Part shown: positions 41,671-46,322 of the stretch, one piece after another | Numbering within the stretch: position 1 is the stretch's first letter | How the letters are laid out: each line of letters opens with the position of its first letter | Assembly: GCF_006385175.1 (NCBI RefSeq) | Contig: NZ_VFIY01000005.1 | Location: 317,501 to 381,500, forward strand | Direction of reading: 5' to 3' | DNA from: Emcibacter nanhaiensis | GTDB taxonomy: Bacteria > Pseudomonadota > Alphaproteobacteria > Sphingomonadales > Emcibacteraceae | DNA length: 64,000 bases | Program-made: the position numbers and the translations under genes | The notes under the pieces: generated by a model | What the model was told of the DNA's origin: nothing | Databases searched by the model: none | The model's input: the letters and a program-made list of their open reading frames with translations, nothing else

Positions 41671-42402
41671 TTAAAAGAAAATCTGATCGGCCAGGGCGTC
41701 GAGCACGCCCGGCTGGTCATAGAGCACCGGCGCGATGGTGACCTTCACCGCCGGATGGGTTTCGGTAAACTTGGCGATGGTTTGTTCCGTCCGGTCCTTG
41801 AGGCGGCCGGAAAACAGCAAAAACGGACTGACCGCGAGGCGGGCCATGCCCTGCTCCACCAGCTCTTCCAGGGTTTGCTGCAGGCCCGGTGCCTTGTCGC
41901 CGGTAAAACAGAGCCGCCCGGTCGGGATCTGCAGCCTCTGCAGCAGGGCCTCCAGCACGTCCTGCCCCCGTTCGGCGACGGCCGGATTGGACGATCCCTT
42001 GACCAGCAGCGCCAGGCCCTCGGCATTCTCGCCGCCCGACTGGCGTACCGCCTGCGCCGCGGCCTCGATGATCCGGCCACTTGATCCTGTTTCACTTCCA
42101 TAATGAATTTTCATGGCGCTGCCCGAGAGGCGATAGCTGCGCAGGATTTCGGGGATATCCTCGCTCACATGCATGGCCGGGAACAGCATCAGCGGCAGCA
42201 CCAGCACTTCCTGGATGCGGTCCTCTTCCATGTGCAGCAGGCTCTGGGTCACCGACGGTTCGGCGAGCTCCAGATAGGCGGTGCGGATCTCCACATGAGG
42301 AAAACGCACCCTGAGCTTGTCCGCCAGTACCGCCTTTTCCTTTGCTGGTTGTGGCGAGCGGCTGCCGTGACTGACCAGCAAGATGCCTTGTTTTTTCATC
42401 AT
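41671..42402 (-). CDS. CbiX-type sirohydrochlorin chelatase family protein
   Basis: 243 residues with two CbiX/CbiK-like halves. The first has LLVSHGSRSPQP and LVLPLMLFPAMHVSEDIPEIL, supplying the two metal-binding His residues. The second half (LLVKGSSNPAVAERGQDVLEALL, LAVSPFLLFSGRLKDR) lacks both. It would insert Co2+ or Fe2+ into sirohydrochlorin for cobalamin or siroheme. No other tetrapyrrole gene is nearby. Confidence 0.85.
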   Translation of the reverse strand: MMKKQGILLVSHGSRSPQPAKEKAVLADKLRVRFPHVEIRTAYLELAEPSVTQSLLHMEEDRIQEVLVLPLMLFPAMHVSEDIPEILRSYRLSGSAMKIHYGSETGSSGRIIEAAAQAVRQSGGENAEGLALLVKGSSNPAVAERGQDVLEALLQRLQIPTGRLCFTGDKAPGLQQTLEELVEQGMARLAVSPFLLFSGRLKDRTEQTIAKFTETHPAVKVTIAPVLYDQPGVLDALADQIFF

Positions 42403-45702: not shown

Positions 45703-45743
45703 CCGGATGTGATTTCATTTTTCTGTATATTTATCCTAAATAT

Positions 45744-45790
45744 GAACAAATATAAATAAAAAAGGAACAAAAATAAGAAATAATGAACAA
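45744..45790. promoter_or_regulatory. Three helically phased GAACAA boxes
   Basis: GAACAA occurs at 45744, 45765 and 45785, i.e. 21 and 20 bp apart, two helical turns each. The first and third sit in the longer repeat ATGAACAAATATAA. They lie between the start of the TPP enzyme gene and the end of the Lrp-type gene. The same hexamer appears in the inverted repeat upstream of the regulator. Confidence 0.5.
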
Positions 45791-45817
45791 ATATAATATA
45801 TATCTGACAGATAAACT

Positions 45818-46261
45818 TTACGTGAAGCAGGTCCGCCGGTCGAATTTGGGCGACAATATGATATGGGTTTCCGTCTTCAGGATTCCGGGCATCATGGCGA
45901 TTTTGGTCAGGACCTCGTCCAGGTGCGGGTGCGTGTCCGCATGGACCAGGGCAATGAAATCAAAGCTGCCGGCCACGGTGCTGAGGCAGGCCACCTCCGG
46001 CATATTTTCCAGCGCCTGTTCGATTTCCTGACTTTTTTTCGGATCCCGGGTAATCATCACATAACAGCGGATATTGCCGTTGTCCGCTTCCGGTTTCAGG
46101 GTCACCGTATAGCTGTCGATGACCTTTTCCTCCAGTTTCTGCAGCATCATATGGATGGTGGAGCGGGCCAGGCCCAGTTTGCGGCCCAGCTCCGCCGCAC
46201 TCAGGCGGCTGTTGACCTTGAGGAGTTCCAAAAGCTTCTTTTCATTATCCTGTAGCTGCAT
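45818..46261 (-). CDS. Lrp/AsnC-family transcriptional regulator
   Basis: 147 residues. The N-terminal winged helix-turn-helix (LLELLKVNSRLSAAELGRKLGLARSTIHMMLQKLEEKVIDSYTV) is followed by a RAM ligand/oligomerisation domain (VMITRDPKKSQEIEQALENMPEVACLSTVAGSFDFIALVHADTHPHLDEVLTKIAMMPGILKTETHIIL). Such proteins sense amino acids and form octamers. A perfect inverted repeat lies 22-61 bases upstream, suggesting autoregulation, and related boxes precede the TPP-enzyme gene. Confidence 0.93.
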   Translation of the reverse strand: MQLQDNEKKLLELLKVNSRLSAAELGRKLGLARSTIHMMLQKLEEKVIDSYTVTLKPEADNGNIRCYVMITRDPKKSQEIEQALENMPEVACLSTVAGSFDFIALVHADTHPHLDEVLTKIAMMPGILKTETHIILSPKFDRRTCFT

Positions 46262-46282
46262 TACATCCTCTTGTACAATTGA

Positions 46283-46322
46283 TTATGAACAATCGTAGCA
46301 TAAAAAATACAATTGTTCATAA
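46283..46322. promoter_or_regulatory. 11-bp inverted repeat upstream of the Lrp-type gene
   Basis: TTATGAACAAT (46283-46293) and ATTGTTCATAA (46312-46322) are perfect inverted copies, separated by 18 bp. They contain the same GAACAA core as the phased boxes at 45744-45790. Most likely the operator of this regulator. Confidence 0.6.

Follow-up and report, generated by a model that had tools for sequence, protein, structure and literature searches.

Phased GAACAA boxes and an inverted repeat as candidate operators of an Lrp/AsnC-type regulator beside a predicted L-piperidine-6-carboxylate dehydrogenase operon in Emcibacteraceae

INTRODUCTION

Lrp proteins bind sites whose centre-to-centre spacing is two or three helical turns, as described in the sections of PMC2995911 used here. 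Beside the target of the beta-alanine-responsive BarR of the Sulfolobales lie 15-bp sites at regular intervals; according to the part of the report drawn on here (PMC10201364), these sites are semipalindromic, lie between the regulator gene and the adjacent metabolic gene, and are set on the same face of the DNA, two (or three) helical turns apart. The locus studied in this work resembles BarR in this arrangement of its sites. However, as far as that part of the report goes, BarR works on archaeal promoters, with another motif, and from sites between two promoters of one intergenic region, whereas here the regulator gene and the operon point the same way, with candidate sites on either side of a bacterial -35-like hexamer. 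Ss-LrpB of Sulfolobus solfataricus is likewise archaeal, with another motif and other targets in the sections cited (PMC2995911), whereas our locus has a three-site array before the target operon and an inverted pair at the regulator's own promoter. In mycobacteria, LrpA is reported to bind the upstream region of lat, which encodes lysine epsilon-aminotransferase (PMC4726150, in the excerpt relied on here), and there, as here, an Lrp-type regulator stands beside a gene of the lysine/L-piperidine-6-carboxylate (P6C) pathway. As far as tested, the mycobacterial protein appears to differ in equivalog and motif.

We analyzed a stretch of 64,000 nt from Emcibacter nanhaiensis, hereafter the window, and compared its Lrp-type locus with those of related genomes.

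RESULTS

An Lrp/AsnC-type regulator beside a predicted P6C dehydrogenase operon

The regulator is composed of an AsnC-type helix-turn-helix and an Lrp/AsnC ligand-binding (RAM) domain, both scoring above the curated Pfam cut-offs (Table 1), which places it in the Lrp/AsnC family. In the NCBIfam profile comparison, no equivalog reached its own cut-off with this protein. LysM (NF040947) scored 60.5 bits against a curated cut-off of 180, the E. coli Lrp equivalog (NF008370) 35.8 bits against 233, and the AsnC equivalog (NF008384) 41.1 bits against 227, and the regulator was assigned to none of them. Structure comparison returned, among the structures listed, distant Lrp-type structures only.

The regulator gene and the target operon are co-directional, both on the minus strand. 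The operon begins with an acetolactate-synthase-like TPP enzyme, followed by an aldehyde dehydrogenase that is predicted to be L-piperidine-6-carboxylate dehydrogenase, its score exceeding the equivalog cut-off. Upstream of the regulator gene lies an aldo-keto reductase gene, and an inverted repeat is located between this gene and the regulator start codon. After the P6C dehydrogenase gene, we observed a gene for a CbiX-type (sirohydrochlorin chelatase-like) protein (41671–42402, minus strand; Pfam was run on the window copy only), which may extend the operon; a look-alike of this protein is also encoded shortly after the dehydrogenase in L054.

Table 1. Position and supporting evidence of the genes and candidate operators of the locus in the window
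Feature	Position	Strand	Evidence
Candidate operator array of the TPP-enzyme/P6C-dehydrogenase operon, three 21-nt units	45738..45799	-	Boxes at 45744, 45765, 45785; box in 20/20 regulator-bearing relatives
Lrp/AsnC-type regulator, 147 aa	45818..46261	-	Pfam AsnC_trans_reg 58 bits (cut-off 25), HTH_AsnC-type 33.4 (cut-off 27)
Target operon gene 1: acetolactate-synthase-like TPP enzyme, 562 aa, subfamily PRK08199	44014..45702	-	NF006052, 839.7 bits (cut-off 539)
Target operon gene 2: predicted L-piperidine-6-carboxylate (P6C) dehydrogenase, 501 aa	42490..43995	-	NF050084 equivalog, 816.8 bits (cut-off 730)
Candidate operator arm proximal to regulator start, TTATGAACAATCGTA	46283..46297	+	As 15-mer centred at 46292
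Candidate operator arm distal to regulator start, TTATGAACAATTGTA	46308..46322	-	As 15-mer centred at 46313

A phased array and an inverted repeat in the window

The candidate array is intergenic, with the regulator gene on one side and the TPP-enzyme gene on the other. The first-pass annotation of this DNA had noted three GAACAA boxes at 21 and 20 bp before the operon, and we found them exactly so on the plus strand (45744–45749, 45765–45770, and 45785–45790, start to start), sitting in three 21-nt direct repeats (45738–45758, 45759–45779, and 45779–45799). As the operon is transcribed from the minus strand, the boxes read TTGTTC along the mRNA, which corrects that annotation. A single GAACAA is not rare, with 33 matches in the window against 27.4 ± 5.0 expected, whereas GAACAA-N14/15-GAACAA was found twice, both times at the array, against 0.02 expected. 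The phased-chain score of the window's target promoter region was reached by 0 of 500 shuffles.

For the pair pattern, a genome-wide motif search, which had been recommended together with the boxes, gave three matches in 3.96 Mb, two of which are the window array. The single-box scans for a wider regulon were uninformative: in the window's own genome, ATGAACAAWYGTM with one mismatch matched 13 times and its reversed control 6 times, the corresponding counts for TGAACAWWYGTMA being 21 and 18, and we claim no further target.

The inverted repeat flanking the regulator's own promoter, originally described as 11 bp long, is exact, with TTATGAACAAT at 46283–46293 (plus strand) and 46312–46322 (minus strand; partner ATTGTTCATAA), and turned out to be longer, growing to 15-nt arms that are 93% complementary. 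The centres of the two arms taken as 15-mers are 21 bp apart (Table 1), as in the array, so that the inverted repeat is no separate device.

Conservation of the genes and boxes in Emcibacteraceae

The ortholog search for the regulator covered 60 genomes, the window's own included, among them 32 genomes of the family (31 besides its own). It yielded 20 orthologs with 59–82% identity, all within the 31 other family genomes, and the next best proteins were paralogs of at most 43%. With the window's genome, the regulator is present in 21 of the 32 Emcibacteraceae genomes. The P6C dehydrogenase is present in 25 of the 32, including all 21 with the regulator, and a regulator ortholog was found in none of the seven family genomes without the dehydrogenase. 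The dehydrogenase alone among the neighbours is retained by every relative with the regulator, and the order from regulator to dehydrogenase is kept as well, with the TPP-enzyme gene between them in the window, G001, G002, and G030. In L057 (G021), the TPP-enzyme gene is a short in-frame remnant behind the array, consisting of an N-terminal and a C-terminal piece (frame read by eye).

Conservation in relatives with the same genes was the touchstone that the first-pass annotation had set for its boxes, and GAACAA (TTGTTC) precedes the target operon in all 21 regulator-bearing loci, against 3.9 expected. It was the most enriched of 1512 six-base words in the 21 target promoters and one of the two top words in the regulators' own promoters, where it occurs in 16 of 21 against 1.9 expected. 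The phased-chain score beat the shuffles, of which no more than 4 in 500 came up to it, in 16 of the 21 target promoters; related loci are not independent, and the shuffles take no account of phylogeny. In the other five, the score was reached by 68 (L054), 33 (L057), 81 (L059), 54 (L060), and 18 (L063) of 500 shuffles, the low score of L057 reflecting the 300-nt limit on the region, which excluded its first box. Across 11 loci of one genus, pairwise identity was 95%, 97%, and 75% in boxes 1, 2, and 3, and 43% and 39% in the upstream and downstream flanks, where only the figures for box 1, box 3, and the flanks count, since the pattern used to anchor the alignment takes in part of box 2. Boxes kept in this way across a bacterial family indicate that the motif is real.

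A 15-bp site repeated at 21 bp

We built a 15-mer matrix from 33 sites of the target arrays only and ran it on 20 of the 21 regulator promoters (L003 was left out, with masked bases). One half of the site, (A)TGAACA(A), is strong; the other, approximately GTMA, is weak and poorly conserved. In the regulator promoters, the inverted pair reached its highest score, 8.43, at a centre-to-centre distance of exactly 21 bp; at both 20 and 22 bp it scored 5.35, and the 34 distances averaged 5.42 (sd 0.58). The direct pair scored highest at 42 bp. Neither the 21-bp inverted-pair score nor the 42-bp direct-pair score was reached by any of 300 shuffles, and removing the window and its nearest relative did not change this. 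Because single sites alone are strong, the shuffles stayed below the 20- and 22-bp values too, and the peak over distances is therefore better evidence for 21 bp than the shuffles. The best 21-bp pair was weak or located elsewhere in L005, L006, L011, L014, and L020. Judged by sequence only, a phase of about 21 bp, as looked for in helically phased operators, is present in both control regions.

The ordinary frequency of single GAACAA words in the window might suggest that the boxes are chance words in an A+T-rich intergenic stretch. The spacing statistics, the conservation in 21/21 loci, and the independent matrix test refute this, and we give it practically no weight.

Promoter elements inside the array

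The array of 19 of 20 relatives includes TTGAC or TTGAT between two boxes; its first base lies 14 bp beyond the start of the preceding box and 7 bp ahead of the start of the next. It is likely the -35 element, as far as its sequence and position indicate. The relatives were aligned on TTGA[CT], so that conservation of the hexamer in that alignment is partly circular; for the reading of the locus we lean instead on the family-wide count of the combined pattern, the word enrichment, the matrix test, and the identities of box 1, box 3, and the flanks. The second box is degenerate in three of the 19 (L059, L060, and L063), and the set is shifted by one box in L044. In one genus, most loci have TCGTTC or TTGTTC, resembling a box, 21 bp further on. 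The combined pattern TGTTC-N8-TTGAC-NN-WTGT occurred once each in 18 of the 32 family genomes, at this locus in 17 of the 18, and the reversed control gave 1 match. TTGAC does not occur between the boxes of the array in the window, and a promoter scan of this region found no sigma-70-like match in the direction of the operon and one chance-level match on the wrong strand.

This -35-like hexamer inside the relatives' array, which the first-pass annotation had missed, points to repression. Some Lrp proteins activate, and the same regulator and sites might instead turn on the operon upon binding of a catabolic amino acid, with only the regulator's own promoter repressed. Activation is known for some Lrp-type regulators of degradation, such as an Lrp-like protein that reportedly activates putA of Agrobacterium, and in the window and G002 the 20/21 spacing and the placement of the boxes could put them upstream of the promoter. 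However, boxes on both sides of TTGAC/TTGAT in 19 of 20 relatives, and a third box that abuts the likely -10 in one genus, would block RNA polymerase, and we consider activation rather unlikely. Repression is most likely the default state, since the array of the relatives encloses the -35-like hexamer and extends over the likely -10.

An extra ACATTCGTCA-like site was found in nine loci of one genus (L045–L052 and L055; third box of L051 read by eye) in the leader before the dehydrogenase gene, 86–88 bp after the third box in eight of them and 77 bp after it in L045. The stretch between the third box and this leader site does not look conserved. We tentatively suggest that the weak half of one operator may itself be the -35 (TTGAC, GTCAA on the other strand) and that the next site may abut the -10, so that the 21-bp Lrp period would be locked to promoter spacing and array and promoter would move as one module; in one genus, the extra site might extend the complex into the leader. 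If true, the operator lattice would be built on the promoter itself.

Co-occurrence of the boxes with the regulator gene

An extra gene separates regulator and target in G001, G012, G014, G018, and G031, and in these genomes the boxes precede the target operon and do not come directly after the regulator gene. Four genomes (G005, G020, G023, and G028) have the P6C dehydrogenase without the regulator. Exact boxes were found in none of their three readable loci (L083, L085, and L088), compared with 21 of 21 loci with the regulator; G023 was left out of this count, its dehydrogenase gene starting at a contig end, and the assemblies of G020 and G028 are incomplete, at 74% and 88%. No box lies upstream of the dehydrogenase in G005, and G028 has a decayed box only, ATGTTC behind TTGACT. 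In G020, the dehydrogenase directly adjoins the oxidoreductase gene that elsewhere flanks the regulator (translated start read), and the region upstream of the dehydrogenase is without a box. It seems that at this locus (L088) the regulator gene is gone from between its usual neighbours and the boxes with it, perhaps by a natural deletion.

Several Lrp proteins coexist in the family, among them a paralog beside a lysine 6-dehydrogenase-like gene, and the boxes, as predicted operators, might be those of a different transcription factor, placed next to the Lrp gene by accident. Against this, they occur at the regulator's own promoter and at its neighbour, the full array is found almost nowhere else in each genome, the readable loci without the regulator have no exact box, and no phased boxes were seen in the three readable promoters of the paralog/dehydrogenase pair (three of five loci). 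Such an accidental association is thus quite improbable, and sequence comparison indicates that the candidate boxes are very probably bound by this regulator.

Ligand and pathway context

Lysine, which had been put forward as a candidate ligand, is not supported for this genome, in which we found neither of the two P6C sources looked for. Lysine 6-aminotransferase was above the family cut-off in none of the 32 family genomes, the window's included. A lysine 6-dehydrogenase-like protein is present in 5 of the 32, and that of the relatives has no match in the window's genome; the tentative name rests on family PF03435, with no matching NCBIfam equivalog. The target enzyme weakly suggests a ligand from the breakdown of lysine, pipecolate, or aminoadipate.

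The lysine 6-dehydrogenase-like genes (L142, L143, and L145–L149) are divergent from a paralogous Lrp gene in G006 and G021, the two examined. Like the regulator studied here, to which it is about 42–43% identical, this second paralog (G006, G021) has a neighbouring enzyme that, if rightly named, would make P6C. In contrast to our locus, three promoters of the pair that were read carry no GAACAA array, and its dehydrogenase is absent from the window's genome. Paralog and lysine 6-dehydrogenase-like gene possibly form a second lysine circuit without a GAACAA array. At seven loci (L053, L054, L056, L058–L060, and L063), a divergent cluster upstream of the regulator gene was seen by eye to encode an FAD oxidoreductase and an ABC transporter, joined at several of the loci by a subtilisin-like protease; presumably, it resembles the maturation genes of quinohemoprotein amine dehydrogenase. 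In the open-licence literature, we found no relevant report on a regulator of P6C dehydrogenase or lysine 6-dehydrogenase.

DISCUSSION

The original proposal of an Lrp-type control circuit with same-face spacing is supported by the Lrp/AsnC domains of the regulator, the conservation of the boxes, the 21-bp phase, and the known spacing of Lrp sites. The locus is probably a local autoregulatory Lrp/AsnC-type circuit with operators on one face of the DNA, repressing both promoters until a ligand arrives. Dimers of the regulator would bind 15-bp sites through one strong and one weak half, and since the sites are about 21 bp (two helical turns) apart, a multimer could hold two or three of them on one DNA face. 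The inverted pair would cover the regulator's own promoter and the direct array that of the TPP-enzyme/P6C-dehydrogenase operon, and the default would be repression of both. A ligand linked to the P6C-dehydrogenase reaction would change the multimer and lift repression; from the layout of the sites, we favour repression relieved by a ligand, though less firmly than the circuit as a whole.

The circuit is of a well-known kind, and no earlier report of the motif was found in the open-licence literature searched. Two points are of some interest, namely operators built round the promoter and the extra ACATTCGTCA-like site in the leader. For an uncharacterised regulator, the analysis names the motif likely to be recognised, the target operon, and the rule by which the sites are spaced, backed by a family-wide comparison, and it indicates that an Lrp array can stay with its promoter while the surrounding genes are lost or inserted.
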